DNA of 64,000 nucleotides, taken from NCBI GenBank assembly GCA_964017185.1, contig OZ024875.1:42563486-42627485 (forward strand). The letters run 5' to 3'. Below the pieces are notes generated by a model that was not told where the DNA came from, ran no database searches, and saw only the letters and a list, made by a program, of their open reading frames with translations. Position numbers and translations under genes: made by a program. This DNA comes from Rugalucina vietnamica (taxonomy: Eukaryota; Mollusca; Bivalvia; Lucinida; Lucinidae). Within the stretch, counting starts at the first letter, position 1. Each line of letters opens with the position of its first letter. Of the stretch, positions 736 through 61,868 are shown piece by piece.

Positions 736-3700
736 CTGAGAAAACAAACATAGCATAAGTTTTTACAGCATTGTTTTCATTGTGATTTGAGCCTGTGCGT
801 GAGAAAACCAACAATTTGCATGGGCGAAAACAAAGACGCAGATCAGCTTCGCGGTAACCGCGAAGCTGATCAGCGCCTTTGTTTTCGCTACTTGGATAGT
901 ACAATATCTCTTCTACTTAAATCCGAAATTTCAAGCTTCTAGCTCTTTTCTGTGACTGTACAGCCTGGTTTGTGTCGGACCTGGTCTGAAACTCAAATTG
1001 TTGGTTTTCTCATGCACAGGCTCATTTAATGTTCTACCCAAATTTTTCAGCCATGCTGAGACAGAACAATCACTTCCTGGAAATTACATGAACTGCGCCA
1101 TGAGAAAACTGAATTTTTGCCTACTTGAAAAACAAAGACGCAGACCAGATTCTCAGTAACTGCGAAGCTGATTCTCAGTAATTGCGAAAATGCATCTTCT
1201 TCCTCCTCTTTAATTTCATACTATGTCGTCTTCATGCCTGTTACGTACCGCAATTATGAGCCGCAACCCGAGAAAACCCGGTCTTCCGGATTTCCAACCT
1301 GGTCTGACGCAGTTACTGAAGATGGCTAGATGCTTGAAATTTCAGATTTAGGAAGAACAGGAATTGTACTATCCGTGTAGCGAAAAACAAAGGCGCTGAT
1401 CAGCTGTGCAGTTACTGCACATCTGATCTGCGCCTTTGTTTTCGCATAGGCAAAAATCTGGTTTTCTCATGAAGCGGCTCATATCTGACATTTCTGGAAA
1501 CCACAAAGACGTACAACTGACATGGAACTCAGTCCCTTACCTTCCTCAGTGTTAGGTATGGTAACATTATTCTCTGTATTTTCTGTTGTTTCCGTCTCAG
1601 TCTTTGCCTTTGTTTTCGCCGTCACGCCTTGCGCTGGCTGATTCACACTCCGTGACAATGTCTCTAGCGGCTTCAGTGCCGCGTTGATCGTATTTGCCAT
1701 ATACGGACTAGACAAATCCAGGTAGTAGGGAATTCTCGCCAAGTCTGTGACTAGACCGCGCTTCAACAGATTTTTCACTATATTGTTCATGACACTCTGT
1801 TGTCCTTTGAACACTTGATTCATTACTTGTCCTGGGCTCGGACACGACTCGATCATCGTACTGATTATGCCAGTGAGTGACTGGACCCGCGAATGTTTAT
1901 CGGCACTCTCCGGCAGCACCAGCGCCCTCTGCAAGGCCGCCTTCACTTCGTTGACTAGAGTCATCTGGGCTTCAGGACTGTGGTTACACGACGCGATGCT
2001 GGCTACGAAAACTCGTGACAGAGCAGGGCAGTCCTTGTCGCCCGCTCCTGTGTTGGCATGAAGCAAGTGATCCAGCACAAAGGCTAACACAGAACAGTCC
2101 TACAAACAGTAACATTCAAAACATTATGAGTAAAATGAAAATGTCCTGTTAAATCTTAGATCCATAGTTACGTCATGAAGATACTATCTTGATTCAGTCT
2201 CATCTCAAAGACTTGAATGGAAGCTATAATAAACAATACTGAACAATAGAAGAAAGCCCAGTTGTGAGCTGATTTTTTTTTCAACACTTGTGAAAAATTA
2301 AAATAGTGTTTTCTGAGGAAAACTATGTCCCCCCAACCGTTTAGTAATTGAAGTGTAGTTACCTTGTTATATGAAGTTTTTCTATGGAAGACACCATGCC
2401 CATCTTGTTCTGTATGGTGTGGTAGTTTAAACTTGTTTTGGACCCTGTCTAAAATTAGGTCACGATCACCAAATTCTTATAAACTCTGAACCTCTTCACA
2501 ACAATGCTTCTGTGCAAGTTTGGTTAAAATCCATCAATTGGTTTACAAGTTATCGCGTCCGAAAGACTAATTTCAACAGTTATGAACTAGTGACCTTGGA
2601 AATTAGGTCAAGGTCACCAAAATCTTATCAACTCTGAGCAACTTCTGTGCAAGTTTGGTCAAAATCTATCAATTAGTTTACAAGATATCGTATCGGAAAA
2701 ACTAATCTAAATAGTTTTATGGACTCGTGACCTTGAAAATTAGGTCAAGGTCATCAAAATCTAACCAACTCTGAGCCTCCTCCAAACAATGCTTCTGAGC
2801 AAGTTTGGTCAAAATCCATCTATTGGTTTACAAGATATTGCGTTGGAAATACTAATTTCAACAGTTTTTATGGACTCACAACCTTGAAAATTAGGTCAAG
2901 GTCACCAAAATCTATTCAACTCTGAGCCTTCTCGCAACAATGCTTCTGTGCAAATTTGGTCAAAATCCATCAATTGGTTTACAAGATATTGCGTTGGAAA
3001 GACTAATTTCAACATTTTTTATAGACTCGTGACCTTGAAAATTAGGTCAAGGTCACCGAAATCTAATCAACTCTGAGCCTCCTCCCAACAATGCTTCTGT
3101 GCAAGTTTGGTCAAAATCCATCAATTGGTTTATAAGATATTGCGTTGGAAAGACTAATTTCAACAGTTTTTATGGACTTGTGACCTTGAAAATTAGGTCA
3201 AGGTCACCAAAATCTAATCAACTCTGAGCCTCCTCCCAACAATGCTCTTGTGCAAGTTTGGTCAAAATCCATTCATTTGTTCAGAAGATATCGTGTCGGA
3301 AAACCTAATTTGATCAGTTTTCATGGGCTGGTGACCTTGAAAATGAGGTCAAGGTCACCAAAATCTAATCAACTCTTTCCCCCCTCCCAACCATGTATCT
3401 ATGCAAGTTTGGTCAAAATCCATCCACTGGTTCAAAAGATATCGTGTCGGAAAGAAGCTAAGCAGACGCCGACGCGAATGCGGACGCCGACCGGATCCGC
3501 ACCAAAAACAATATGTTCCCCACCTTCGGTTGGGGGGACATAATTTATAAAGATAAGGATGTTAATTATAATTGAGCCGCAGCATCAGATAGTACAATTC
3601 TTCTTCTACTTAAATCTGAAATTTCAAGCTTTTCAGCCTTTTCAGAGACTGTACATAGGCTGGTTTGTCGGACCTGGTCGGAAACCTGAATTGTTGGTTT

Positions 3701-6700
3701 TCTTATGCAAAGGCTCATATACATACCTCTGTAATTAACTCTGACTGTCCAGCAACATACATGTGCTGTGTAATCAGCTGTGTACAACTACAGTAAGACT
3801 TTATAATCTCTGATATCATACGCAGTATTGATGACTTTGGCAGCAGGGGACGTTGTTTCTTAGATTCCTCAGAGGACTTGGTCTCCCCATCCTTGCTTGA
3901 GGTCTTGGATGAACCAGCCTCTGAAGACTCGCCTGGAACCTACAATAATCCAGTCAAACATCTGGTATTTCTTCCATTCTATCAATACTCTTTGCTGAGC
4001 AACCCAATGCTTTATTAAATAGAGAATCTTACACACATGGTATTTAACACAAGCCTTTCGAAGGTTTAATGAATTGAAATGTAAAATTTCACAGAAACTT
4101 TGCACTGTTGTCACAAACTTCACATGGAACTCCTGCAAAAGTTTTAATAGATGAGTGCATATCATACATATGAACTTAATTTTCACAAAAATTTGCCAAT
4201 TCATTGACTTGCGAATTCAAAAATCTCGTTAATAATGAATCTCTTAAGACTTTACAAACACGTTTGTGAATTCAAGACCTAGCAAATAATTCAGAAATAG
4301 AAAATTTCGCAAAATATCCCATGAAAATTTCCAAATTTACAGTATTACATAACGTTATCCACCCAATAACAGCAGCATCATATGATTAAGGAGCTTAACA
4401 ATTTTTACATCAAATTCAATATTATTTGACGGTTGAAATATGATTATCTGATTTATTCCTCGGAGCCTTCATTTAGAGCCTCTATGAGAAGTACATCAAA
4501 TTTACTGTAGCATTCTGCCCTTCTCGATATGACCCATATAGTGGGTCAGCCGTACACAAGAATGCTTTGTCCATCAAACCTGCAGTAGAGCAATCTCTCA
4601 CTAACAGAAATATGAGCTGCGCCAGGAGAAAGCCAACGTTTTATACATGATCAGCATCAAAGCCTTTGTTATCGCTACAGTGATTGTACAATTCCTCCTC
4701 CAAAATCACAAAATTTACAGCCTGTAACCATATTCTATGACTACACAGCATTGTTTGTGTCAGACCTGGTCGAAAATTCAGATTGTTGGTTTTCTCATGC
4801 GAAAGCTCAATTATCATAACAAAGCATATTTACCGGTGTCTCGTCCTCTGTAGCTTGTATCTCTACAGTAGCACTGGTTCTCTCCGACATCTCACTGACG
4901 ACCTCCGCTATGGCCTCGGCAAATGTCTTGTCCTTACTTTCACCTGGGCTACCTAGAAATACAGCAGATAAAATGTTGAACAACTGAAATGTATTTTGCA
5001 GTACACTGAAACGCCCTATCCAAATGTAACAATATCAGCTATAGTCTCTGAAAATGTCTTGGACTTACTCTCACCTGGGTTACCTAGAAATAAATCAGAG
5101 ATATCCTGAGTATTGTTTTTGACAGGTAAGTTTGGGCATTTTGTGCGACTTTTATTTTAAAGATTTTAAAACGCCCCTAAAATTGAAAGTGGACTCACCC
5201 TAATGATAATGATTGGAAAATCCATTCGTCAAATATGGGTTAACGAGACAAGGTATTGCCAATGAAATGCCAGCCTATATAGAATCTAACTATATTCTTA
5301 TTATGTAGGTTTGCAGTATCTGCATTAACAGATTTTACATGTTCAAAATCTTCAGTATGTCTTTTTAAATCACCCAAAATTAGCAGAGCTTTATGCCTAT
5401 CCTACCTTCATCTTGTTTCCAGGAGTATTTGACAATAAGAGCGTTGAGCAAACTTTCCACCATATCTTTTAGAGGTGACTGAATAGACGTACACATCAGC
5501 TGTTTAGTTGAACTACACTTGATGATCTGTGGAGCATTAGGGCCTGTCAGACGAGCTTCGTCTTCATCTGGAAGTGGAGGTATGAGAAAATATTTAACAA
5601 AATCTTGTTTATTTATTGTGGCCTGAGGGCCACACAATAGAATAGCTGGGGTGACTGAATAGATGTTATGTCAGTTGTTTAATTGAACTGCATTTGATGA
5701 TCTAATGAGCAAGTGGAAGCATGATGAAGCATTGGAAACAATTTTAGTTCTTACACAACACTTAACAATCTGCAAAATCATCTGCTGATTATGACAAAAT
5801 AACCACCCTCACAAGGCTTCTTTAAACTGTTTATGCTCCTGACAACACACCAATAGGTTTCTGAAATTTCTGCCACTCTGATTTTGAACTGAACATGGGG
5901 CATTCTACACCCAACATGCCGGCATTGAACCATTCTTAAGGAGAGAAATAAATGCCAATGTTAAAATGTAGACAACTTTAAAAGAAAACTATCACATATA
6001 ATAGTTTTCTGCAATGAAGATGTCAGTTACTGTAGCATTCTGCCCTTCTCGATATGACCCATATAGAGGGGCCAGCCGTACACAAGAATGCAAAGAAAAG
6101 ATTCTGACAATATTTCTTAACATGTTCAAATAAAGTTAACTATAACAGAGACTTAACATACAGAACTGAGATGCAAGTATCTTCTCTCAAAAGAAAACAT
6201 GTACACGTACAAAGTTTTCTGCAATGAAGACATCAGTTACTGTAGCATTCTGCCCTTCTTGATATGACCCATATAGTAGGGCCAGCCGTACACAAGAACG
6301 CATGGAAACATCTTGACAATAATTATTGTTGCCCAATTATGTTCAAATATGGTTGTCTTTCATGGATACATGAGATTTTACATTTGAGCTCATGGGAAAA
6401 CCGACAATGTGGTTTCCGAACTGGTCCGACACAAACCGGACTGTACAGTCACAGAAGATGGTTAGAGGCTGGAAATTTTGGATTTAGAAAGTAGAGAATT
6501 GTACTGTCAGTGTAGCAAAAACAAAGGCGCTGATCAGCTTCGCAGTTACTGCGAAGCTGATCTGCGCCTTTGTTTTCGCATATGCAGATTGCTGGCTTTC
6601 TCATGGCATGGCTCATTTAGTAATAAGAATAGATGTTGATATCTTCTATCAATAGAAATCAATCATGTACAAATGTTTTCAACGATGAAGATTTCAGTCT

Positions 6701-9700
6701 GCCATTCTCGATATGACCCATATACTGGAGCCAGCCGTACACAAGAATGCAGCCTTTCTTACTTCTTCTTTCACAGACAGTACAATCTCTCTTCATCTTA
6801 TATCTAAAATGTTAGCTTCAACACTTCTGTGAATATACAGGCCGGTTTGCGTTGACATAGCCTACAACGCCGAAGACCGGTTTTCACGTATAGTTGCACA
6901 AGGTTGACATTTTTTTTTTTATTTTTCATTGAACTATACCTCTCTTTGAAGGTGGTGGCAAAGCAATCCTCATAATCTCTTGGGCCAGTTCAGAGAACAG
7001 TGTCGGGTTTCTGCAGGCCGCAGGTCCTAGCACCCTGAGGACGTAGTGCATCTCCTTGGCTCCCACACTGCGCTGAGAAACACCACTGGCACTGGACCCA
7101 GACCCTGAACACACACTCTTGATTACCTGTAAGAAGAATAGGGGGTAACATGAACCTCGGCATGATTATACTATTATTTGGGTTTCTCGTTCACTTACAG
7201 CTAAGGTTGGGCATCTGTCCAGTCCAATTAATCTTCACAGTTCACTCAAAATCCATCAACATCTAAGGTCATATGGAGACAGGACCAAGGTCAGTCTTAT
7301 TCGAAAGACTGGAGAATTGGGGAAAGTGCCCGCCAGCTTACCAGGGCAAGTGGCTTAATCGCTACACCACCAAAGCTTCTTCAGGCTCATCTCAGACTTG
7401 CTGAATGTAAAGCCCAGTCATCAGTTCAAGAATAATTCAATTTAGAAAAGGCTGTATATTCAGCATAAGTAAACCATACTAAACTAGAAATTGGCTGCAA
7501 GCAAGGCTTTCAGTATACCCCCCCGCAAAATTATCTGAAGCTGGCCAATAACTTCCTAAGTCAAACATGCAGAAAATTTGTCAAAGATATCTTTTCAGCA
7601 TTATAATCCTTCATGTACATCCCCAGTATGCCAGGCACATCTATAAGATATTAAAAGAATATATTGAAAGCTTGAGGTTGATTTCAATGTATGCACTATG
7701 ATCATTGTTTATCATGAGAAATGGTAAAAATTGGCTAAGTTAAATAAAAGCTGTAAGTTTGTCAAAAATTAAATTTTCAGCATGAAAATTATTCATGCAC
7801 ATCTAAAATATATCTGGAACAAATCTACAAAGAATCTATAAGAAACATTGAAAGCCCTTGGAGGAGTTGATTCACAAAGTATGCACTACCAACCATTATT
7901 GTATATAAGCAATGGTCAAGAAATGGCTATGTTGAAAAATGATGTAAATTTGTCAAATATCACTTTTTCAGTATTATAATTATTCATGCACATCTTCAAT
8001 ATGTGTGGAACATGTCTCAAAGTATTGAAAAGAAATACTGAAAGCCCTACGAGGAGTTGATTTCACAAACCATCATTGTATATAAGCAATGGTCAAACAA
8101 TGGCCATGTTAAAAAATGCTGTAAATTTGTCAAAAATTAATTTTTCAGTATTATAATTCTTCATGCACATCTTCAATATGTGAGGAACATGTCTGCAAAG
8201 TATCAAAAAGAAATACTGAAAGCCCTTGGAGGAGTTGATTTCACAAAATGTGCACTACCAACCATTTTTGTATATAAGCAATGGTAAAAAAATGGCTATG
8301 TTGAAAAATGCTGTAAATTTGTCAAAAATTATTTTTTCAGCATTATAATTCTTCATGCACATCTTCAATATGTGTGGAACATATCTGCAAAGTATTGATA
8401 AGAAATACTGAAAGCCCTAGGAGGAGTTGATTTCACAAAATATGCACTACCAACCATTATTGTTTAAGCAATGGTCAAAAAATGGCTATGTTGAAAAATG
8501 CTGTAAATTTGTCAAAAATTATTTTTTCAGCATTATAATTCTTCATGCACATCTTCAATATGTGTGGAACATGTCTGCAAGGTATTGAAAAGAAATACTG
8601 AAAGCCCTAGGAGAAGTTGATTTCACAAACTATGAACTACCAATCATTATTGTATATAAGCAATGGTCAAAAAATGGCTATGTTGAAAAATGCTGTAAAT
8701 TTGTCAAAAATTATTTTTTCAGCATTATAATTCTTCATGCACATCTTCAATATGTGTGGAACATGTCTGCAAAGTATTGAAAAGAAACACTGAAAGCCCT
8801 AGGAGGAGTTGATTTCACAAACTATGCACTACCAACCATTATTGAATATGGCAATTATCGAAAATTGGCTAAGTTCAAAATGCTGTAAATTTGTCAAAAT
8901 TCATTTTTTCAGCATAATACTTCTTCATGCATATCTTCAATATCTCTGGCACATATCTGCAAAGTATCAAAAGAGAATATTGAAAGCTGTAGGAGGAGTT
9001 GATTTCACAAAGTATGCACTATTAGCACTATGGCAAACATTCTATGTATAGGTTTAAAAAGTCCCATAACTCTTGCAAAACTGACCCTTTGGCCCCTAAA
9101 TTCATACCACACATGTGTTGTCTTATGGTGCAGGTGTGTTGAAAATTTGAAGAACATCAGGCAAAAACTACTTAAGTTATTCAGCAAAGATGTCAAAATG
9201 TTGACGGAATGACGGAATCACGGAATCACGGAATTACGGACAGACTGAAAACAGTATACCCCCCTAAAACTTCGTTTTGCGGGGGGTATAAAAATCTGAA
9301 TTAGCAACTGTCAGCACAGAAATTGGCAACATAAAAGATACAAAACAAAAGCCAATGTGATAATCAACGACAGCAATCTCATGCAGAAACTTTGAATATC
9401 AAATTCTGATAAATGGTTTACAGAAACTTGCATCATATCATCCCATGCTGTCAGACTGTTTCAAGATCAAAGACGTTTATGAGATATACAAACCTTCTCC
9501 ATACAGTATTTCAATGAAGGTGGCTCTTCTAAGATGTGTCGAAATATCAACATGGTGAGGGATAGGAAACCCTGGAATGCCGAGGCTTGGGTGAGTGACA
9601 GCAACAATTTTGGTCCTCCGAGTTCAGCAAACTGTAACGCATACTTGTGTTCCCTAGTGAGTCGTAGGATGAGACGTAATGCTGCGTGTAGGGTCTCCGC

Positions 9701-12700
9701 TTCCACGGGAATACTGATGAGGCTTACCACAGATCTGAATAGAAAGGCACTAACTTAAGTCTTAAAGCCATCAGAAAAGTATGGGGAAATGAGACTCGTT
9801 TGAGTTTATGCTGTATGCTCAAAATGTTCATAACTAATTTTCTCAACTCTTTTAAGTTCTTGCAAATACCTAATTTTTCTTACTTTGAAAAATATTAGCT
9901 CCTTCAAAGAAGAATATGATAACTTTTAGCCTGTCCGATTAACAAAATATTACATTTACCTTATAACTTCTGCCACCTGAACATTGTTTAATCCTTTAAC
10001 CACCAAAGATGGCTTCGTCTTTTCACTGGATGGGGGAGATGCCATTTCTGTGTCCATGACTGGGGGGAGGGAGGGGGTGGTGGCGGACTGGGTAGCGTTG
10101 TTCTCCTCTTTCTGTTCCTTCTTAGGGGGTGGTGCGGTCTCCTCGGGGGGAAATGTCAGCATGATGGGACGACGATTGGACGTTTCTTCATTTACCTGGA
10201 ATAAATGATCTTATAGAGCATGATTTATGATATACCACTGAAAGTGAGCTATTACTTGAGCCGCCTCGTGGGAAAACCAACAATGTGGTTTCCGAACAGG
10301 TTTGACACAAACCAGACTGTGCAGCTACAGAAGCAGGCTAGAAGCTTGAAATTTCGGATTTAAGAAGAAGAGGGATTGTACTATCCGAGTAGCGAAAACA
10401 AAGGCGCTGATCAGCTTCGCGGTTACCGCGAAGCTGATCTGCGCCTTTGTTTTCGCCTATGCAGATTGTTGGTTTTCCCACGGGGCGGCTCATTTACATG
10501 TAATAAATCAGGTGGTTCAAAATGTGCAGTCAAAGCATAAAAACACTGGACACATGCTTTATTTTACTTTTTTTCTACCTTTCTACTGTAGTCACTAAAC
10601 CAAATACATGTAAGGGTTGAAACTTGAGCAACAGGCTGATTAGAGCCTTTGTTTGTTCTTTTCTCTGTCAGCATTTTAATAAACAGTCATTTTGTTTGGA
10701 AAGCAGGCTAGTTTCAATGTCTTGACCTAGTACAATTCTTGCCAAAATACAGATTTATAAGGCTTGACATAAATTCCTGCCGTACCTGGACCATAGAGCT
10801 GAAGTGTACAGTGTAACGTCGTCTCCCTGCAGTAAACCTGACAGAAGTCTCCCCAGCTCTGTAGGCGTCATCTATCGTCTTGTTGTTCCCAGTGTTGTAT
10901 TTACACCACCGGCCGCTCTGGTCGTCAAACCACTTCCACGTGTGGCAGTTGGCCTGAAATGACACAGAAGTATTGTGTATACTCTATACATTTAAAAAAA
11001 AATTCAGTCATGTTGAGAGAACCACGTTCCTAGATATTAACCACTATTATGGGGACTGCTAAAAGATACTACCTTTGGAGTTTGAGCCCAGCACCTTTCA
11101 TTTGAAGCCTGGTGCTTTTACCACAAGGACACCACACATCTTGTAATAATGAAGTACTAAAGGGCTCCACTGAGATTTAAACCCTCTACCTCTTGATCCA
11201 GTATTCCCCTCTACCACTAGGCCACTGCATGCCACTTTGTCTCTATGATGAGTAGCAGATATGCATGCCTTTCTTGAAATGCATATCATACAGAAGCCCA
11301 TTAAAGCACTTTCGAAATCATGTCAGTGTAATCTATCTGTACTCCATGATACAGTTTGGTTAAGAGGCTATACAAACACTTAAATCTCACAATCAATCTA
11401 CAACAGAATCTTACCAGAGATTTTTCTGCTTCGGCCTTTCGTTGTGATATCACAGACACTTTCTCATAAAGATCCAGCAGTAACAGCAGTGGGGCAAGCC
11501 ATCTGGAACAAATCAGTAAAATTTGTAATGTCAATGTGTGCGCTGCCACATAAGGAAACCAACAACATGCATAGGCAGAAATACCAGAGGACCAATGGTC
11601 CTGTAAACGCTCACCTGAGATCAGCTGCATATACCAATAAACATGTTTGAATATTATGGTATTTAACTCCAGTGCAGGGGCAGATAAGCCCTTGGGCCAT
11701 TTTCTTTTTTCAGAATCTTCAATATTCTGTCCATTTGCCAATTTCCTGTTGGCTTTTTCCTTCAAATGACATTTTAACAGTTTTCCCAATTCAGATGCAC
11801 AGGCAACCCATGTTGACCTTGCCATAAACTTGGTCAAGGTCATCACAGGGTCATGATTTATATATACATTGGAGTACTTAAGCCATCGATGCCTCACGCC
11901 AAGTTTCCTTGAAATCAGTCTATTGGTTTCAGAGAAGATGATTTTGATGGGTTTTTACCATATATGGGCATGGCGGCCATCTTGGTCATGTGACCTAGAT
12001 TATTTATATACACATTGATTCCCCCATTCTATAGATGCTTCACTTAAAATTTGGCTTTGTTTAGCCAAGCGGTTTCAGAGGAGAAGACGTTTGAATATTA
12101 TGGAAATATACATGTATATTGCCCCGGGGTGGGGGCACATGAGCCCCTGGGGTCCAATTTTTTTCAGAATCATTAATATCCAGTCCTACTGCCCATTTCC
12201 TGCAAGACTTTCACTTTAAATGACATTTTAAAAGTATTCCCCATTCAAATGCATTGGTACCTATGTTGACCTTCCCGTAAAATAGGTCAAGGTCATCACA
12301 GGGTCATGATTTATATACACATTGTAGTGCTTGAGCCATCGATGCTTCGTGCCAAGTTTCGTTGAAATCGGTCAACCGGTTCTGGAGAAGAAGATTTTTG
12401 AACGGTTTTTACCATATATGGGCATGGCGGCCATCTTGGTCATGTGACCTGGATTTTTTATATACATATTTGTTACCCCTTCCTATTGATGCTTCACATA
12501 AAATTTCGCTTTGATTGGCCAAGCGGTTTCAGAGGAAATGTTTGAATATTATGGAGATATACATGTATATTGCCCCGGGGTGGGGGCGGATGAGCCCCTG
12601 GTGCCCAATTTTTTTCAGAATCATTAATATTCAGTCCTACTGCTCATTTTCTGCAAGATTTTTCCTTTAAATGACAATTTAACAATTTTTCCCATTCAAA

Positions 12701-15700
12701 TGCATTCGCGACCTATGTTGACCTTGCCGTAAAATAGGTCAAGGTCATCATAGGGTCATGATTTATACACATTGTAGTGCTTGAGCCATTAATGCTTCAT
12801 GCCAAGTTTGGTTGAAATCGGTCCAGTGGTTCTGGAGAAGAAGATTTTTGAAGGGTTTTTACCATATATGGGCATGGCGGCCATCTTGGTCATGTGACCT
12901 GGATTATTTATATACACATTGGTTCCCCCTTCCCATAGATGCTTCATGTAAAATCTGGCTTTGATTGGCCAAGCGGTTTCAGAGGAGAAGATCTTTGAAA
13001 ATGGTGGACGACGGACGGACGGACGACGGACGGACGACGGAGCATGGGTATACTATAAGCTCACCTTGTGAGCCTGACGGCTCAGGTGAGCTAATAAAAA
13101 AAAATCTGGTGAAAGGACAATAAATTTTTTTGAGTAGGCCCATTTGTGGTGAGTAGGTAGGGAGAGTGCAAACAAACAAATTTTTATTTTTGGCCAAAAC
13201 ATAAATCTTCTGTCAATTTGCTCATTTCTAGCAAGTTTTCTGCCATTTAATTACATTTTCCTATTTTTTCCCATTCCAATGCATGGGAGACCTAAGTTGA
13301 CCTTGACGTAAAATAGGTCAAGGTCATCCCAGGGTCATGATTTATATAAACTTTGTAGAGCTCCATTCCCAGATGCTTCAAACCAAGTTCCAAAATCATA
13401 GGCCTTCTGGTTCTGAAGAAGAAGATTTTTAAACGTTTTTGCTATTTATAGCCATGGCGGCCATCTTGGTCATGTGACCTTGACCATTTACATAAACTTT
13501 CATTCCCCCTTCCCAAGGATGCTCCACATGAAGTTTGGCTTTGATTGGCCTAGCGGTTTCAGAGAAGAAGATGTTTGAATATTATGGTCATATACATGTA
13601 CGGTATATAGCCCCGGGGCAGGGGCAGACAACCCCCCAGGGGCTAAAATTTTCCATTAACATTAATCTTCTGTCCATTTGCCTATTCCCAGTAAGTTTTA
13701 CCCATTAAATAGCATTTTACCATTTTTCCCATTCAATACATTGGCGACCCAAGTTGACCTTGCCGTAAAATAGGTCAAGGTCATCCTAGGGTCATGATTT
13801 ATATAAATTATAATGGGCCTGCGTCCCCAATGCTACATACCAAGTTTCGTGGAAATCGGCCCACTGGTTCTGAAGAAGAAGATTTTTAAAGGTTTTTGCT
13901 ATTTATAGCCATGGCGGCCATCTTGGTCATGTGACCTGGACCATTTATATAAACTTTCATTCCCCCTTCCTAAGGATGCTCCACATGAAGTTTGGCTTTG
14001 ATTGGTCAAGCGGTTTCAGAGGAGAAGATCTTTGAAATTGTGAACGACGGACGACGGACGGACGGACGGACGCCGGAGCATGGGTATACTATAAGCTCAC
14101 CTGTGAGCCTTCGGCACAGGTGAGCTAAAAAGGCGCAGACCAGCTGTGCAGTTACTGCACAGCTGATCTGCGCCTTTGGTTTCGCTACACAAATCTGAAA
14201 TTTCAAGCTTCTAGCCTTCTTCTGTGACTGTACAGGCCAGTGTCTTATGTCCAATTTCACAGCTATGGCTAATGTTAGACAGGACCTTGGTTAAAAGTCA
14301 CATCCCAAAAGCATGAATGGGTAAATCACTTACTTTGGAGTGGTGCTATGTTTCACCGCCACGAGGTAGTCTTTACTAGCCGACATGACCTGTACCAGTA
14401 GATCAGTGAGGTTGGACATTTCCAGCGCCTCCGCACAGGGCATCATTGTCCAGCAATACAGAACTAGATATTGGTTAGATCACTTACTTTGGAGTGGTGC
14501 TATGTTTCACCGCCACCAGGTAGTCTTTACTAGCTGACATGACCTGTACCAGTAGATCAGTCAGGTTGGACATTTCCAGGGCCTCCGCACATGGCATCAT
14601 GGTACAGCAATACAGAACTAGATATTGGTTAGATCACTTACTTTGGAGTGGTGCTATGTTTCACCGCCACCAGGTAGTCTTTACTAGCTGACATGACCTG
14701 TACCAGTAGATCAGTCAGGTTGGACATTTCCAGGGCCTCCGCACATGGCATCATGGTACAGCAATACAGAACTAGATATTGGTTAGATCACTTACTTTGG
14801 AGTGGTGCTATGTTTCACCGCCACCAGGTAGTCTTTACTAGCTGACATGACCTGTACCAGTAGATCAGTGAGGTTGGACATTTCCAGGGCCTCAGCACAC
14901 GGCATCATGGTACAGCAATACAGAACTAGATATTGGTTAAATCACTTACTTTGGAGTGGTGCTATGTTTGACCGCCACGAGGTAGTCTTTACTAGCTGAC
15001 ATGACCTGTACCAGTAGATCAGTCAGGTTGGACATTTCCAGAGCCTCCGCACAGGGCATCATAGTTTCCTACAAACAAAACAAGCAGGACTCAAATCAGC
15101 ACATTCTCTTTTAATGCTAAACTCTGAGACAAAAGACTATACCCAATGTGAATATTTGGCAATTTGATTACGATCTTTGTAGTCAGTTTCGGCAATATTA
15201 TGTTCCAGACTTTTTTGTAAAGCTTGTATCTCACTGGAATGTGACATCTGGAGACTAGTTGGTGGCGAAGGTTTACAATATAAACACAATTTTCACATAG
15301 CCATCTTATCGATGAATATCTGTGCACAAGTTTAGCAAATTTGGACCAGAGTTTGTCGCAAGATTCTAATGCCCTAGTTGTGAAACACACATTGCTTCGT
15401 TTTGTTTTCTCTAAAGACAGTCACAAGTTGTTAGCAAATTTGTTCTCAACATTATTGAATGATAATCGTGCATGATCTGTGAAAGTGTCACTAATTGGTT
15501 GCATTGTATATTCGCAAGAATTTTGCCCTAACTGAATTATGGAATTTGAAATAGAAGTTTCAGGATTTGCATAATTGAATCTCAACCCAATATTCTTGGG
15601 CTAAATATCCTCCTATGAATGTAACTTTTCATCTATCAACCTTTTGCAGGGATGTATCAAAATGGCTGAAACCTAGCATATGCATTGTGCTAATTATCAA

Positions 15701-48700: not shown

Positions 48701-51700
48701 AGGCTTTCAGTATACCCCCCGCAAAATTATCTAAGGCCAATAACTTAAAGGCCTTTAAGTCAAACATGCAGAAAATTTGTCAAAAATATCTTTTCAGCAT
48801 TATAATCCTTCATAAAAATCCTCCGTATGTCTGACTCATGTCTGTAAGGTATTAAATAATATACTGAAAGCTCAGGGAGTAAAATTATTGTTGATTTCAC
48901 TGTACACTGTTGATCATTATTTATCATGAGAAATGGTCAAAAATTGGCTATGCTAAAAAAAAGCTGTAAATTTGTCAAAAATAAATTATTCAGCATAAGA
49001 ATTATTCATGCACATCAGAAATATATCTGGAACAAGTGTGCAAAGAATTCAAATGAAACAATGAAAGCACTAGGACTTGATTTCATAAAGTATGCACTGC
49101 CAGCCGTATTGTATATTAGCGATGGTTGAAATATGTCTAAGTTGAAAAATGCTGTAAATTTGTCAAAAATTATTTTTTCACCAATAAAATTCTTTATGCA
49201 CATCTTTAATATGTCTGTAACATGTCTGCAAAGTATTGAAAAGAATTACTGAAAGCCCCAGGAGGAGTTGGATTTCACAAAGTATGTACTATCAACCATA
49301 ATTGAATATAAGCAGAAATGGTCAAAATTGGCTAAGTTTAAAAAGCTGTAAATTTGTCAAAACTAAAATTTTCAGCATAAAAATTCTTCATGCACATCTT
49401 CAATATATCTGGAACAAATCTGCAAAGAATTAAAAAGAAACTAGAAAAAGTGCCTTGAGAGGCACGTATACCCCCGGCTGGTAGCCACCAAGCCCCCTTC
49501 CCTACCCCCTTCCTAAACAACCCGGCACATGCTCATCCCTGACATTGAACATCACATCACCAATGAAAAACAGTACCCTTATCAAGTACATTTTAGAAAC
49601 CACCAAGCCCCCTTCCCCACCCCCTACCTAAACAACCCGGCACATGCTCACCCCTGACATTGAACCTCGAATCTCCAACGAAAAACAGTACCCTTATCAA
49701 GTACATTTTAGAAATTAAAACAATGTTTTCTGAGGAAAACTATGTCCCCCCAACCGTTTAGTAATTGAAGTGTAGTTACCTTGTGATATGAAGTTTTTCT
49801 AGGGAAGACACCATGTAAGGTGTGATAGTTTAAACTTGTTTTGGACCCTGTCTAAAATTGGGTCACAATCACCAAATTCTTATAAACTCTGAACCTCCTC
49901 CAACAATGCTTCTGAGCAAGTTTGGTCAAAATCCATCAATTAGTTTACAAGATATCGTATCGGAAAAACTAATTTCAACAGTTTTTATGGACCCGTGACC
50001 TTGGAAATTAGGTCAAGGTCATCAAAATCTAATCAACTTTGAGCCTCCTCCAAACAATGCTTCTGTGCAAGTTTGGTCAAAATCCATCAACTGGTTTACA
50101 AGATATTGCAGTGAAAAGACTAATTTCAACATTTTTTTATGGACTCGTGACCTTGAAAATTAGGTCAAGGTCACCGAAATCTAATCAACTCTGAGCCTTC
50201 TCGCAACAATGCTTCTGTGCAAGTTTGGTCAAAATCCATCAATTGGTTTACAAGTTATCGAGTTGGAAAGATTAATTTCAACATTTTTTATGGACTCGTG
50301 ACCTTGAAAATTAGGTCAAGATCACCAAAATCTAATCAACTCTGAGCCTCCTCCCAACAATGCTTCTGTGCAAGTTTGGTCAAAATCTGTCAATTGATTT
50401 ACAAGATACTGCGTTGGAAAGACTAATTTCAACATTTTTTATGGACTTGTGACCTTGAAAATTAGGTCAAGGTCACCAAAATCTAGCCGACTCTGCGCCT
50501 TCTCGCAACAATGCTTCTGTACAAGTTTGGTCAAAATCCATCCATTCGTTTACAAGTTATCGCGTTGGAAAGACTAATTTTAACATTTTTTATGGACTCG
50601 TGACCTTGATTATTAGGTCAAGGTCACCAAAATATAATCAACTCTGAGCCTCCTCCCAACAATGCTTCTGTGCAAGTTTGGTCAAAATCCATCGATTGGT
50701 TTACAAGATACTGCATTGGAAAGACTAATTTCAACATTTTTTATGGACTCGTGACCTTGAAAATTAGATCAAGGTCACCAAAATCTAATCATCTCTGAGC
50801 CTTCTTGCAACAATGCTTCTGTGCAAGTTTGGTCAAAATCCATCTATTGGTTTTCAAGATATTGAGTTGGAAAGACTAATTTCAACAGTTTTTATGGACT
50901 CGTGACCTTGAAAATTCTGTCAAGGTCACCAAAATCTAATCAACTCTGAGCCTCCTCCCAACAATGCTTCTGTGCAAGTTTGGTCAAAAACCATCATTTG
51001 GTTCACAAGATATTGCATTGGAAAGACTAATTTCAACAGTTTTTATGGACTCGTGACCTTGAAAATTAGGTCAAGGTCACCAAAATCTAATCAACTCTGA
51101 GCCTCCTCCCAACAATGCTTTTGTGCAAGTTTGGTCAAAGTCCATCAATTAGTTTACAAGATATCGTATCGGAAAAACTAATTTCAACAGTTTTATAGAC
51201 TCGTGACCTTCAGAATTAGGTCAAGGTCATCAAAATCTAACCAACTCTGAGCCTTCTCCCAACAATGCTTCTGTGCAAGTTTGGTCAAAATCCATCAATT
51301 GGTTTATAAGATATTGCGTTGGAAAGACTAATTTCAACATTTTTTATGGACTCGTGACCTTGAAAATTAGGTCAAGGTCACCAAAATCTAATCAACTCTG
51401 AGCCTTCTCGCAACAATGCTTCTGTGCAAGTTTAGTCAAAATCCATCAATCGGTTTACAAGATATTGCGTTGGAAAGACTAATTTCAACATTCTTTATGG
51501 ACTTGTGACCTTGAAAATTAGGTCAAGGTCACCAAAATCTTATCAACTCTGAGCCTCCTCCCAACAATGCTTCTGTGCAAGTTTGGTCAAAATCCATCAA
51601 TTGGTTTTCAAGATATTGAGTTGGAAAGACTAATTTCAACAGTTTTTATGGACTCGTGACCTTGAAAATTAGGTCAAGGTCACCAAAATCTAATCAACTC

Positions 51701-54700
51701 TGAGCCTCCTCCCAACAATGCTCTTGTGCAAGTTTGCTCAAAATCCATTCATTTGTTCAGAAGATATCGCGTCAGAAAACTAATTCAACAGTTTTTATGG
51801 ACTCGTGACCTTGAAAATTAGGTCAAGGTCACCAAAATCTAATCAACTCTGAGCCTCCTCCCAACAATGCTTTTGTGCAAGTTTGGTCAAAGTCCATCAA
51901 TTAGTTTACAAGATATCGTATCGGAAAAACTAATTTCAACAGTTTTATAGACTCGTGACCTTCAGAATTAGGTCAAGGTCATCAAAATCTAACCAACTCT
52001 GAGCCTTCTCCCAACAATGCTTCTGTGCAAGTTTGGTCAAAATCCATCAATTGGTTTATAAGATATTGCGTTGGAAAGACTAATTTCAACATTTTTTATG
52101 GACTCGTGACCTTGAAAATTAGGTCAAGGTCACCAAAATCTAATCAACTCTGAGCCTTCTCGCAACAATGCTTCTGTGCAAGTTTAGTCAAAATCCATCA
52201 ATCGGTTTACAAGATATTGCGTTGGAAAGACTAATTTCAACATTCTTTATGGACTTGTGACCTTGAAAATTAGGTCAAGGTCACCAAAATCTTATCAACT
52301 CTGAGCCTCCTCCCAACAATGCTTCTGTGCAAGTTTGGTCAAAATCCATCAATTGGTTTTCAAGATATTGAGTTGGAAAGACTAATTTCAACAGTTTTTA
52401 TGGACTCGTGACCTTGAAAATTAGGTCAAGGTCACCAAAATCTAATCAACTCTGAGCCTCCTCCCAACAATGCTCTTGTGCAAGTTTGCTCAAAATCCAT
52501 TCATTTGTTCAGAAGATATCGCGTCAGAAAACCTAATTTGATCAGTTTTCATGGGCTGGTGACCTTGAAAATGAGGTCAAGGTCACCAAAATCTAATCAA
52601 CTCTTTCCCCCCTCCCAACCATGTATCTATGCAAGTTTGGTCAAAATCCATCCACTGGTTCAAAAGATATCGCGTAAGAAAGAAGCTACGCGGACGCGGA
52701 CGCCGACGCGGACGCCGACGCCGACGGGAACCGCACCAAAAACAATATGTCCCCCACCTTCGGTTGGGGGGACATAATAAGCAGTGTAAAGTACTTTTTT
52801 ATATAAACATGGGGAGGTCTAGTTTTAGAATGACATATCTATTTTAGAGTGGTATACAGAGCTGACGTGTATACCCAATCTAGGACATAAGCGCGGACAT
52901 TTTGGGTCAGGTCCTCAGTCCTAGATTGAAATGAAAGTAGAATGTCATTCTTATAAAAAAAAAAAAATAAAAAAAAAAATAAAAAGTCCTAGATCTTGAC
53001 CTCAGGTCCCACCCCCACCCCATGCATGGACCAGTGGGCCTAGCCCTTATGTGGTACCTATGTTGTGTTGTAAGCATGAACACTTTCTAATACATGGTTG
53101 TCAAGATATAGACACACAGAATATTAATCTTGGTAACTACTGTATTTTATGTGTCCTAGATTTTGACCTCGAGCCCCACCCCTAGTGTTTGGTGCCATGG
53201 AATTTAATTCAACCCTAAAGGGTATCTATGATCCAAACAGGAATACATTCCTATAAGTATTTGTTAAGATATGAACTTAGAGATGAAAAAACACTATGTA
53301 AATAGCACATTTTCAAGGTGACCTAGATTTTGACCTCTAGCCCCACCCCCGGGCATGGACCAAAGGTCCGAACTAAAAGAAACAAAGCAAACCCTATAGG
53401 GTACCTATGGTTAAAATATGATTGGTTTCTGATCATTGGTTCATGAGATATACACCACAAGTGAAACTTAAACCAAAACTTTGACCCAAAGTAAAGGTGA
53501 CCTAGATTTTGACCTCTAGCCCCACCCCCGGGCATGGACCCAGGGTCCAAACTCACAGAAACAAAGCAAACCCTATAGGGTACCTATGGTTAAAATATGA
53601 ATGGTTTATGATCATTAGTTCATGAGATATACACCACCAGAGAAACTTTAACAAAAACTTTGACATAAATTCCACGAACGTTCCGGAATAACGAACGAAC
53701 TAACGAACGAACGAACGAACTAACCAACGAACGAACCAACGAACATACGAACGGACGAACGGACGAACGGAAAAGCGAAAACTATATACCCGTCGGCATA
53801 AATGCCGGGGGTATAACAATGAAAGCCCTAGGAGGAGTTGATTTCACAAAGTATGCACTACCAACCATTATTGTATGTAAGCAATAGTCGAAAAATGGCT
53901 AAGTTAAAAAATGCTGTAAATTTGTCAAAAATTATTTTTTCAGCATTATAATTCTTCATGCACATCTTCGATATGTCTGTAACATGTCTGCAAAGTACTG
54001 AAAAGAAATACTGAAAGCCCTAGGAGGAGTTGATTTCACAAAGTATGTATGTAAGCAATAGTCGAAAAATGGCAAAGTTAAAAAATGCTGTAAATTTGTC
54101 AAAAATTATTTTTTCAGCATTATAATTCTTCATGCACATCTTCAATATGTCTGTAACATGTCTGCAAAGTACTGAAAAGAAATACTGAAAGCCCTAGGAG
54201 GAGTTGATTTCACAAAGTATGTACATGTATGTAAGAAATAGTCGAAAAATGGCAAAGTTAAAAAATGCTGTAAATTTGTCAAAAATTATTTTTTTCAGCA
54301 TTATAATTCTTCATGCACATCTTCAATATGTCTGTAACATGTCTGCAAAGTACTGAAAAGAAACACTGAAAGCCCTAGGAGGAGTTGATTTCACAAAGTA
54401 TGCACTACCAACCATTACTGAATATAAGCAATTATAGAAAATTTGCTAAGTTAAAAATGCTGTAAATTTGTCAAAAATGATTTTTTTCAGCATGACAATT
54501 GTTCATGCACATCTGCAATTTACTTAAACATATCAGCAAAATATTAAAAGGAAACATTGAAAGATGTAAGAGGAGTTGATTTCACAAAGTATGTACTTTC
54601 AGTACTATGGCAAACATGTTAAAGGAAGACTTAAAAAGTCCCATAACTCTTGCAATACTTACCCTTTGGCCCCTAAATTCATACCACACATGTATTGTCT

Positions 54701-57700
54701 GATGATGCAAGTGTGGTGAAAATTTGAAACAAATCAGGCAAAAGCTACTCAAGTTATTCAGCAAAGATGTCCAAATGTTGACGGAATGACGGAATGACGG
54801 AATCACGGAGTCACGGAATCACGGAATGACGGAATGACAGAATGACGGAATGACAGACAGGCTGAAAACAGTATACCCCCCTAAAACTTCGTTTTGCGGG
54901 GGGTATAACTAAGGTCATAAGGAGATGGGATCTCAGTCTCAACCAAAAAGACTGGAGAAGCCCAGATCCCGACCTATGACCAATGGTTTACAAGGTCATT
55001 CCTTTGTATGCACACCCTGGAAACTAACACTATGTCAGGAAAGACAGATATCCTACATCAATTTTCATGTGCAAGCTTATAAGTACTTATTGCACTCATG
55101 CCTGCTGGACTTTCTATTCAAACAGGCTTACCTGAATACAAACAGAAGGTTCAACACCTCCAACACGACAGTCATATCACAGGAGGCGAGTAGAGACGTC
55201 AGGTGTTCCATAGAGCTGTACAGGTGCCGAGAGAAACTGTGCTCTATCAGCATGGCTGTGAAGTGTACCACCTTTAGTAGGAGCTGCTTCAGCTGGAATG
55301 AACACGAAACATTGAGTTGTCATACTTTAATCATAAAGACAAGTACATGTGAATGAGCCACAGCATGAGAAAACCAACAACTTTTGAGCATCTAGACTCA
55401 AGACTCAAACAGCTTTAAAATTGTTGAAATTTACTGTAGCTTGAAAAAAAAACAAGAGACACCAACAGTGAGAGGCTATTTGTATGAACATGGCAAATTC
55501 TTAGTATTTCTTACCTCTACATTGCCTGGTTGATCACAGGCTAGGGTCCAAGATTTTTCTGTCTCTTTCTTGCAGGCCTTCTCCAGGACCCCGTCAAATA
55601 AATCCAGCACATCGGCCCAGTGGTACAGTTCACACTGAAATATTAGAAAACATAAGCATCATTTTCCTATGTTTCTACAAACAATAGGCCTACAAATGAG
55701 CCGTCTCGTGGGAAAACCAACAATGTGGTTTTCAAACAGGTCTGACACAAACTGGCCTGTACAACTACAGAAGCAGTAGTGTTTCCCCCAGTCCCAAAAA
55801 AGGGCATGGTAAGGTTGCTAAAAAAAGGGCACTTTTTAACGCGCAGCAACATGTCAAAAGGGGACTTTTAGCGCGCGACAGCAAGCAAAAGGGCCTTTTG
55901 CTTGCTGTGGCGCGCTAAAAGCCCTTAAGGGCACTTTTGAAGTGGTCCTTGGCATGCTATGAGGGCACATTTAAACACAGTTTATTAAATTTAACACTTA
56001 TAATATTTTCTCTGTATTATAAATTTGCTTCTCAGCTTAAATTGTTCTTTCCTCAATTTTCCATATTTCAGGATTCACTTTTACCAGAGACAACTTAGTA
56101 ATTTTCTTTTCACTCTGTTTCACACTACTGTATTATTTTATCATGCACGTCAAAATAAGAGATAACCTCACTCAAGATTTGTTTTTGAAAAGTAAACTAT
56201 TGATACTAATTAACTGGCACACTTATATTACCAGGTAGAACACTCATTTTTCACACCTTTTCTGATAAACAGCTCATTTGGTGTCAACTTTTTTTTTTTT
56301 TTTTTTTTTTTGATTCAGTTTTACGTCCCTTTCAAGCTTTTTCACTCATATCGAGACGAATCAATCGGTAGGTGGGGCGAAAACCGGAGTACCCGGGGAA
56401 AAACCACCTGACACACCCGCAAGCAGAACATGGCTTGTCTCACATATGAATTCGTGCTCCGTGCGAGGCGCGAACCCACATCGGTGAGATGATCGAATGA
56501 TCAAGAGCACTGAAGTCAGCGACCTTAACCACTCGGCCACGGGGGCCGCCTGGTGTCAACTTGGGTAATTGTCATGGAATTATTATCAACATTTGCCACT
56601 GCACTAATTAAGTCTAAAGTGACAATAAACGAGGGATTAAAGCAATCAACAACTGTGGAAGTCATGATCATAAATTTTGCTAAATTTGTTTCTGCAGACT
56701 GCAAGCAAAATATCTTGTAACTTCCTTATTTTTGGTCCGATTTTGACAAACTTTTTACCAAAATGTACGGCACAGAATGTTGAGTCAAAAAAGGGCATGG
56801 CGCTGGGGAAAAAGGGCATGGCGCGGCGCCATAGTAAAAGTGGCTAGGGGAAACACTAAGCAGGCTAGAAGCTTGAAATTTTGGAGTTAAGTATAGGAGG
56901 AATTGTACTATCCGAGTAGCGAAAACAAAGGCGCTGATCAGCTTCGCGGCTCAAATATTTCAAAGTGGCAATATCAGATGAGCCGCATCATGAGAAAACC
57001 GCATTTTTGCATATGCGAAAACAAAGGCGCAGATCAGCTGTGCAGTAACTGCAAAGCTGATCAGCGCCTTTGTTTTCGCTACATGGATGGTACAATTCCA
57101 ATCCTTCTTAAATCCGAAATTTCAAGCATCTAGCTATCTCCTGTAACTGCACAGGCCGGCTTGTGTCGGACCAGGTTCGAAATCCCGAAGACCGGTTTTC
57201 TAACGTCGCGACTCAGATGGTAATGTGTACAAAAATGTACAGCTTAAAGGAAAACAGCTATACATTTTGTCTTATTTTTGATGCAAAACAAAGATTGTGA
57301 GTACTCGTTTGAGCTGCCTCATCTGACATGTACTCATGATAAATGTGTTGAGCATAAACATGAAAAATATTTATTTTCAACATAAATTTTTCATTTTTAC
57401 ATACAAAAAAAAAATCGCTGTTCATTTCATTGGCATCCTTTTGCAATGTCTGTGTCTGATTAACTCCAAAGACAGTTTAAATCCTGACAATTCTGAAGAA
57501 TCACATACCTTTCCATAGCTCCAACTTTTTAATGCCGTAAGTTCTGACAATAAATTCTCCTCTGTAGCTACTTTCAGTCTCTCAATGAGTGGTCTACAAT
57601 CTGCAGGCTGAAAATGGAACAGGATTCTGATTTATATGAGCCGCCTCGTGGGAAAACCAACAATGTGGTTTCCGAACAGGTCCGACACAATCCGGCCTGT

Positions 57701-60525: not shown

Positions 60526-61700
60526 ACTAGAAAAAGTGCCTTGAGAGGCACGTATACCCCCCGGCTGGTAGCTCCCCACCCCGACCCCTAAGCCCAACGT
60601 GCCCGACCCAGACATGTTCACTGACACATTGAATCTCAATTCCCGAATTAAAAAGAGCACACTCAACAAGTAAATCTTTAAAATTTGAATTTGCAAAAAG
60701 CACTGTCTAAAAGCATTGACAGGTGTGTGTGTGAGTGTCGTAGAATGACAGACTACTATAGAGCAGTATGCAGAGCTGACTTGTATACTCAATCTAGGAC
60801 TTGATCGCGGACATTGAGGGTCAGGTCCTCGGTCCTAGATGGAAAATAGAATGTCATTCTTTAATAATATTAATAAAAAAAATAATATGAGATGTCCTAG
60901 ATCTTGACCTCTAGCCCCACCCTGGGCATGGAACCTAGAGTGTAATGTCATTAGGAGGAACAAGGCAAACCTTATAGAGTACCTATGATGCAAGTATGAA
61001 TGATTTCTAAACATGGCGGTTAAAAAAAGTACAGAAAATACAATTTTTAAAGATGTTCTAAATTTTGACCTCTAGCCCCACCCCCCCGCACATGGACCCT
61101 AAGAGTCTGAACCTTACACGCTACCTATGGTCTAAGCATGGATGCTTTCTGACAAGACTTATTTGATGTCAAGAAAATAGACTTACAGAAAATTTGTCAT
61201 GGTCTCTATCATATTATAAATGTGTCCTAGATTTTGACCTTTAGCCCCACCCCTGCGGATGGTACCACTCATATTGAAAGAAAACCCTATAGGGCATCTA
61301 CGAACTAAATAAGAATACATTCCTATGATTGTTTGTTAAGATATCAACTTAGAGAAGAAACAGTAGATATCAACATAGAGAAGAAACAGTAACATTGTAA
61401 ACAGCGCATTTTAAAGGCGACCTAGATTTTGACCTCCAGCCCCACCCCCGGGCATGGACCCTGGGGTCCAACCTCATGGAAATAAAGCAAACCCTATAGG
61501 GTACCTATGGTCCAAATATGAATAGTTTCTGACCATTGGTTTATGAGATATACACCTCTAGAGAAACTTTAACCAAAACTGACATAAATTCTACGAACGT
61601 TCCGGAATTACGAACGAAGAAACGAAGAAACGAACTAACGAACGAATGAACATACGAATGGAAAAGCTATATACCCGTCGGCATAAATGCCGGGGGTATA
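60526..61700 (+). mobile_element. Family F element, copy 2
   Basis: Uninterrupted copy: ACTAGAAAAAGTGCCTTGAG, hairpin GTGCCTTGAGAGGCAC, GTATACCCCCCGGCTGG, 'gagctgacttgtatactcaa', four 'ttgacctctagccccaccc' units, an AACGAACGAATG microsatellite, and the terminal hairpin ending GCCGGGGGTATA. Flanks ..AAGAA and ATTAA.. fit A|A insertion. It serves as the reference for F copy 1. Confidence 0.9.
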
Positions 61701-61868
61701 ATTAATAAACACTCTTGCTAAGGTAGGGAATTACACTGTCTTTTCATTGAAGATTGTGGAAGCTGTCTTTGACTTCTTAGGTCCATCTGAGATAAAGATG
61801 AAGAGATTAGAAAGTCCACCTAGCGGCCACTTTATGTTTGTCGCGCGTGTACCTGTGGCGCCACTTAC

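Follow-up and report, generated by a model that had tools for sequence, protein, structure and literature searches.

The stretch analysed here (hereafter the window) comprises 64,000 nt of the genome of the bivalve Rugalucina vietnamica (contig OZ024875.1 of assembly GCA_964017185.1, forward-strand positions 42,563,486 to 42,627,485). It carries the exons of a HUWE1-like gene, which run from residues 15-48 of the HUWE1 chain at 57.4-57.6 kb down to residues 2105-2260 at 1.5-2.1 kb, together with 14 copies of repetitive elements assigned to six families, A to F. Thirteen of these copies lie within the span of the gene, and one (F2) lies outside it. The elements combine tandem units with an asymmetric terminal inverted repeat (ATIR), and we conclude that the six families are very probably non-autonomous Helitron2/Helentron rolling-circle transposons (HINEs) with satellite-like arrays, all on the minus strand. 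They are further members of an element kind that has already been described, and they add no new trait to it. The features are as follows, with the ends named as read on the minus strand.

1479-57631, minus strand: HUWE1-like host gene, collinear exons (phmmer against PDB HUWE1; UBA match)
2303-3543, minus strand: B1, family B; 5′ end 3543, 3′ end about 2303; ATIR of 16 bp, TATGTCCCCCCAACCG; 3′ palindrome GTTTTCCTCAGAAAAC
7483-9291, minus strand: A1, family A, unoccupied copy, used as the empty-site reference
11585-13094, minus strand: C1, family C; ATIR GCTCACCTGAG, palindrome AGGACCATTGGTCCT, 3′ end CTGG followed by T
13265-14127, minus strand: C-family copy without a recognised 3′ end; 5′ hairpin at 14127 and microsatellite; homology to C2 ends near 13265
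16715-20034, minus strand: D, element with a second, inner 5′ end at 18925 besides the outer one at 20034, and a single 3′ end at 16715; ATIR TATAGCCCCGCTT, palindrome GTCAGATTCTCTGAC, CTAG followed by T
21080-22334, minus strand: E, family E, single copy with an approximate 3′ end; ATIR ATACCCCG (8 bp), palindrome of just 4 bp
25703-27372, minus strand: C2, family C; ends and palindrome present
35640-37320, minus strand: C-related element with 147/166-bp units; 5′ hairpin at 37320, microsatellite, 3′-ATIR CTCAGGTGAGC near 35657; left edge and 3′ palindrome not fixed
43843-47675, minus strand: A2, family A, split by A3 (pieces 43843-45616 and 47635-47675)
45617-47634, minus strand: A3, family A, inside A2
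48680-54909, minus strand: A4, family A, split by F1
49440-53814, minus strand: F1, family F, inside A4 and itself split by B2; palindrome GTGCCTCTCAAGGCAC, CTAG followed by T
49720-52777, minus strand: B2, family B, inside F1, insertion point approximate
60526-61701, minus strand: F2, family F, uninterrupted

The six families named in the original prediction proved to be real, as every motif that was looked up was found in the window and the tandem arrays lay where they had been placed. The A copies align with each other, the F copies align in pieces, and E is a single copy; B1 and B2 share 87% identity, and their likeness runs about 9 nt past the 3′ end of B1. On the minus strand each element opens with T and an asymmetric inverted repeat that folds as a 5′ hairpin; a microsatellite and the tandem units come next, and the inverse repeat, in most cases with a short palindrome behind it, leads to the 3′ end. 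The ends were tabulated for the 12 copies in which both were examined, the copies at 14127 and 37320 being excluded. In all 12 the ATIRs match exactly over 8-16 bp, the match starting 0-5 nt from the assumed 5′ edge. The longest exact match measured 16 bp in A2-A4 and B, 12 bp in A1 (which has one extra C), 13 bp in D, 11 and 10 bp in C, 11 and 9 bp in F, and 8 bp in E. When one 5′ end per family was folded with DNA parameters, the 5′-ATIR and its downstream inverted copy formed a 5′ hairpin in 6/6 families (−10.0 to −13.3 kcal/mol). At the other end, the 3′-ATIR lies 21-31 nt from the 3′ end in 11 of the 12 copies and 36 nt from it in A1, where the match is shifted by the extra C. A perfect 6-bp 3′ palindrome was found in seven of the 12 copies, representing four of the six families (B1, B2, C1, C2, D, F1 and F2; sequences in the list above, C2 differing from C1 at the middle base). 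As a measure of chance, 1.5% of 20,000 random 26-mers drawn from outside the elements contained such a perfect mini-hairpin. Nine of 11 copies (A1-A4, D, F1, F2, C1 and C2) terminate on the 3′ side in CTRR followed by T, E being omitted as its end is not fixed; this terminus takes the form CTAG in 7/7 copies of A, D and F, and CTGG in 2/2 copies of C.

That one body plan is common to A-F beyond chance was borne out both by the agreement of the ends copy by copy and by a scan of the two strands against Markov controls. The scan sought a 9-mer with an inverted copy within 60 nt, a second inverted copy 350-5200 nt further on, and then a stem. With a stem of at least 6, it returned 10 clusters on the minus strand, seven of which join B, C or D ends (in one of them the 3′ end of C1 is paired with the 5′ end belonging to the C copy at 14127) and three of which are accidental. 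The plus strand gave five clusters, four stemming from a palindromic family resembling miniature inverted-repeat transposable elements (MITEs) and one pairing two C ends. With a stem of at least 5, there were 16 minus-strand and 9 plus-strand clusters. The 20 Markov controls, scanned on both strands, gave 0-1 clusters each at the stricter setting and 0-2 at the looser one. A, E and F were not caught by the strict scan of the 64-kb window. The MITE-like family itself is about 240 bp long with a 65-bp near-perfect palindrome, and is represented by 25 pieces, 13 on the plus and 12 on the minus strand (for example 798-1012, 6389-6618, 10253-10495 and 57637-57877).

Each of the six families has a microsatellite next to the 5′ hairpin, of the TTCCGTCA type in A and D, the GGCGTC type in B, the GTCC type in C and E, and the CGTT type in F. 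The tandem units measure 191 bp in A, 151 bp in each of B, D and E, about 450/462 bp and 147 bp in C, and 115 and 179 bp in F. The core repeats had been described as unrelated, a statement that did not survive alignment of the monomers against 200 shuffles each: D and E are related at z 16.4, B and D at 7.9, B and C at 7.8 and 5.9, and B and E at 4.8, while the C unit and the 147-bp unit gave z 7.5 and 12.1. The A and F monomers showed no relation above z 4 in these alignments.

The original prediction had read the elements from the mini-hairpin to the large hairpin and had offered the mini-hairpin beside the inverse block as a new family trait. This polarity is reversed relative to the published one, and the true reading is that of the minus strand. 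In the definition of Helitron2 by Bao and Jurka (2013, PMC3627910), the 5′-ATIR lies 0-2 nt from the 5′ end and makes a 5′ hairpin by pairing with bases downstream of it; the 3′-ATIR stands shortly before a hairpin and is separated from the 3′ end by about 20-30 nt. A similar layout has been given for HINEs (Thomas et al. 2014, PMC4067079). The 11 oyster Cg_HINEs are described in the order subterminal inverted repeat (subTIR), inverted repeat (IR), microsatellite, tandem repeats, subTIR and palindrome (Vojvoda Zeljko et al. 2020, PMC7492417). The window elements fit the published HINE order only on the minus strand; thus the presumed 3′ hairpin is the 5′ hairpin (5′-ATIR and IR, then the microsatellite), and the presumed 5′ mini-hairpin is the known 3′ palindrome that follows the 3′-ATIR. 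The proposed trait is therefore already contained in the published definition, having been a defining feature of Helitron2/HINE elements in papers of 2013, 2014 and 2020. Moreover, the ACTAGAA start reads TTCTAGT on the minus strand, that is, a CTRR-type 3′ end followed by T. Hairpins kept in form but not in letters would reflect recognition of the ends rather than a new trait. The opposite arrangement, a Helitron2-like group whose true 5′ end is the one with ACTAGAA and a novel mini-hairpin and whose 3′ end is the large hairpin, draws on the strength and terminal position of that hairpin, on the 3′ hairpin of canonical Helitrons (PMC4778049) and on the fact that the ends are not named by sequence alone. 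We regard it as highly unlikely, because the published ATIR lies a few nucleotides from the 5′ end and forms the 5′ hairpin there, the palindrome follows the 3′-ATIR, the microsatellite lies on the 5′ side, and the CTAG and CTGG of the minus strand are CTRR 3′ ends. D opposes it too: a transposase that halts at the first 3′ end it reaches would be expected to leave two large-hairpin ends and one mini-hairpin end, as D has. With the polarity corrected and the trait shown to be a known terminator structure, effort can shift to the question of which strand the elements enter.

Three nested insertions were recognised, namely A3 in A2, F1 in A4 and B2 in F1, and two of them (A3 and F1) resolve to a T-run without target-site duplication. 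The site filled by A3 reads CTGTTT on one side and, after the CTAG terminus, TTTCAG on the other (3 + 3 Ts), while the unoccupied A1 reads CTGTTTTCAG (4 Ts). The six Ts against four imply that the element supplies two, and otherwise only the length of the microsatellite has changed. At the F1 site, the flanks are CATTGTT and, after CTAG, TTTCTTTT (2 + 3 Ts); the other A units read CAGTATTTC, CAGTGTTTC or CAATGTTTC at this position, compared with the CATTG...TTTC left by F1, so that the element again supplies two Ts, with one to two substitutions adjoining. The HINE class of A-F is thus supported by the end anatomy, the T-run target and the absence of target-site duplication at the two resolved sites, in agreement with the class that had been proposed. 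These observations also bear on the notion that a DDE transposase of the cut-and-paste type mobilises A-F as inverted-repeat MITEs. Short inverted repeats do stand at both ends, and the bivalve element pearl was originally classed as a MITE, but the pair is asymmetric, one repeat being set back from its end by 21-36 nt, and neither resolved empty site shows a duplication; the probability of this alternative is accordingly minute. Canonical Helitrons (Helitron1) were ruled out as well, since the elements start with T(A) rather than TC, possess ATIRs and target a T-run rather than an A-T junction, despite CTRR in 9 of 11 copies.

Element D offers a further view of insertion, as its inner 5′ end (18925) abuts a tandem unit at that unit's CATTTTT run. 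For Fusarium copies with multiple 5′ ends, the explanation given is that an element inserted into itself and that the outer 5′ end was then the start of a transposition that ran as far as the first 3′ end (PMC5148889). The paired 5′ ends and single 3′ end of D agree with this model and fit the minus-strand polarity. Near D, positions 16513-16713 are similar, in inverted orientation, to 20718-20938, and this stretch ends at the 3′ end of D; an inverted repeat with 61-nt arms of 75% complementarity occupies 20791-20912. Two hairpins of the ATAGCCCC type at 40104-40180 and 42659-42735, in opposite orientation and with about 110 bp of common flank, resemble the 5′ hairpin of D. They were not accepted as a further HINE, as no second ATIR was seen.

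Several observations weigh against the assignment of A-F to the HINEs. No Rep/helicase domain was found in the 99 of 114 open reading frames (ORFs) of at least 75 aa in the window that were scanned, the scan leaving aside shorter ORFs and 15 of the longer ones (12 in element arrays and three HUWE1 ORFs); the matches obtained were DUF913, WWE, UBA and four weak ones at E 0.0016-0.0093. The flanks joined at the first cut were two Ts short for A3 and one T long for F1, so that the fit depends on how the Ts are assigned, and this assignment within the run is arbitrary at both sites. The alignment of B2 in F1 is ambiguous, and its insertion point is not fixed to the base. The two-5′-end form of D could also arise by deletion. 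As for the ends, the 3′ stem of A is mismatched, and in E the stem of 4 bp and the ATIR of 8 bp are each close to chance level; the mini-hairpin that had been claimed for every family therefore holds as a perfect 6-bp stem in B, C, D and F, and not in A or E. Furthermore, B lacks the CTRR terminus in both copies (B1 and B2), and no compensatory change was seen in the stems: the B copies have one and the same stem, as do the F copies, and C1 differs from C2 in the loop only.

All 14 HINE copies lie on the minus strand, which is the strand of the HUWE1-like gene, and no match joining a family on the plus strand to one on the minus strand was found at E 1e-4 anywhere in the window. This one-sided orientation is a lead from a single locus. 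It might mean that intronic HINE insertions are strongly biased to the gene strand, either because antisense copies are purged over poly(A)-signal hexamers or because a single-stranded intermediate prefers the strand exposed by transcription or replication, a reading that we consider rather unlikely. On balance it is slightly more likely than not that the uniform orientation is a meaningless chance effect of one locus, given that a single 64-kb window was examined after the fact, that some insertions (the nested ones and the adjacent pair of C copies) may depend on one another, and that oyster HINEs are reported in both orientations genome-wide (PMC7492417). Against chance stand a two-sided sign p of 1e-3 to 1e-4 for 11-14 independent insertions and the 13:12 split of the MITE family of the window (10:7 if only pieces of 100 bp or more are counted), although this control counts pieces rather than insertions and some pieces lie inside the MITE palindrome. 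The availability of targets also fails to explain the pattern and was rejected as its cause, as T-runs on the minus and plus strands number 2489 and 2487 at a length of at least 2, 364 and 410 at a length of at least 4, and 93 and 135 at a length of at least 5.

Poly(A)-type hexamers within the HINEs number 26 antisense and 8 sense to the gene, compared with 60 and 76 in the rest of the window. This asymmetry is compatible with the purging of antisense copies and is kept as a lead. Because the hexamers were counted over homologous copies, a Fisher p of 0.001 makes the evidence look stronger than it is. The Markov expectation is itself unequal (42.5 antisense and 29.6 sense), and the observed counts fall below it on both strands. 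Orientation biases are known for L1 and long terminal repeat elements, as described in a source in which the word Helitron does not occur (PMC10030826); no orientation bias of Helitrons or Helentrons was reported in the literature searched, as judged mostly by titles and the beginnings of abstracts. If the bias were real genome-wide, it would offer a new approach to the choice of target strand by the single-stranded intermediate of transposition. Within the gene itself, an exon and part of an intron are repeated in tandem at 14318-15062 (154-bp unit, 4.8 copies, 96% matches), and the AG acceptor, judged by eye, is kept only in the first copy in the direction of the gene.

The ends suggest a route of transposition, whose nicking, unwinding and insertion steps are modelled here on the published scheme and on the Helraiser experiments, in which the 3′ hairpin was found to be the terminator (PMC4778049). 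A Rep/helicase supplied in trans by an autonomous partner elsewhere would nick at the T of the 5′ end, where the 5′-ATIR folds with its own inverted copy. Unwinding would proceed from 5′ to 3′ until the 3′-ATIR and the palindrome serve as terminator, and the strand would then be inserted at another T-run. The 5′-ATIR may also pair with the 3′-ATIR to close the round, as proposed by Bao and Jurka (PMC3627910).

Searches for the element ends beyond the window covered viruses and prokaryotes only and are therefore little informative: the end patterns of A, D and C gave 0, 1 and 0 matches in viral contigs, and that of C gave 0 in genome contigs, B, E and F not being scanned. The single viral match to the D pattern was taken as chance, as only the 17-base pattern is common and the rest of the D end is absent. 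Rfam returned nine matches (E 0.01 to 1), eight of which fall on palindromes; every one of them scores far under its gathering threshold.

With three nested insertions (two of them resolved), a two-5′-end element and a one-sided orientation, the window provides a compact worked example for HINE annotation, and its elements can be placed among several known systems. Helitron2 (PMC3627910) shares with A-F the ATIRs (8-15 bp), the 5′-ATIR hairpin, the 3′-ATIR before a 3′ hairpin, the distance of about 20-30 nt to the end and the 5′ T, whereas the ATIRs of A-F reach 16 bp and A-F are non-autonomous with tandem arrays. HINE/DINE-1 elements and Helentrons (Thomas et al. 2014, PMC4067079) likewise combine subTIRs with a palindrome at either end, some of them also carrying microsatellites or tandem repeats, and show T-rich insertion without target modification and with a variable number of terminal Ts; an autonomous partner has been demonstrated for them, while A-F are known from the non-autonomous copies of the window. 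The lepidopteran Hel-2/MITE01 (PMC4344730) resembles A-F in its 3′ CTAG with a hairpin upstream, its 5′-IR and subterminal inverted repeats, and the tetranucleotide microsatellite downstream of the 5′ repeat, but it has a 5′ TC and A/T flanks in place of the 5′ T(A) and T-run of A-F. FoHeli of Fusarium oxysporum (PMC5148889) has ATIRs, self-insertion and copies with multiple 5′ termini like the present elements, and differs from A-F in being fungal, in its other termini and in its many autonomous members.

Among bivalve elements, pearl (Crassostrea, Anadara; units of about 160 bp), DTC84 (Donax) and MgE (Mytilus) are likened to A-F by description, through their short arrays (PMC7492417); pearl was later re-categorised from MITE to non-autonomous Helentron according to the same source. 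The Cg_HINEs of Crassostrea gigas (PMC7492417) have, like A-F, a 5′ subTIR and IR, a microsatellite and a 3′ subTIR followed by a palindrome, and their tandem units measure 100-500 bp, mostly 140-180 bp; the group comprises several families with unrelated modules. They also share the T-rich or TT insertion without target-site duplication, and the GTCC microsatellite seen in C and E. Compared with them, by description rather than by sequence, A-F add microsatellites of the TTCCGTCA, GGCGTC and CGTT types, CTRR 3′ ends in 9 of 11 copies, and the C units of about 450 bp.

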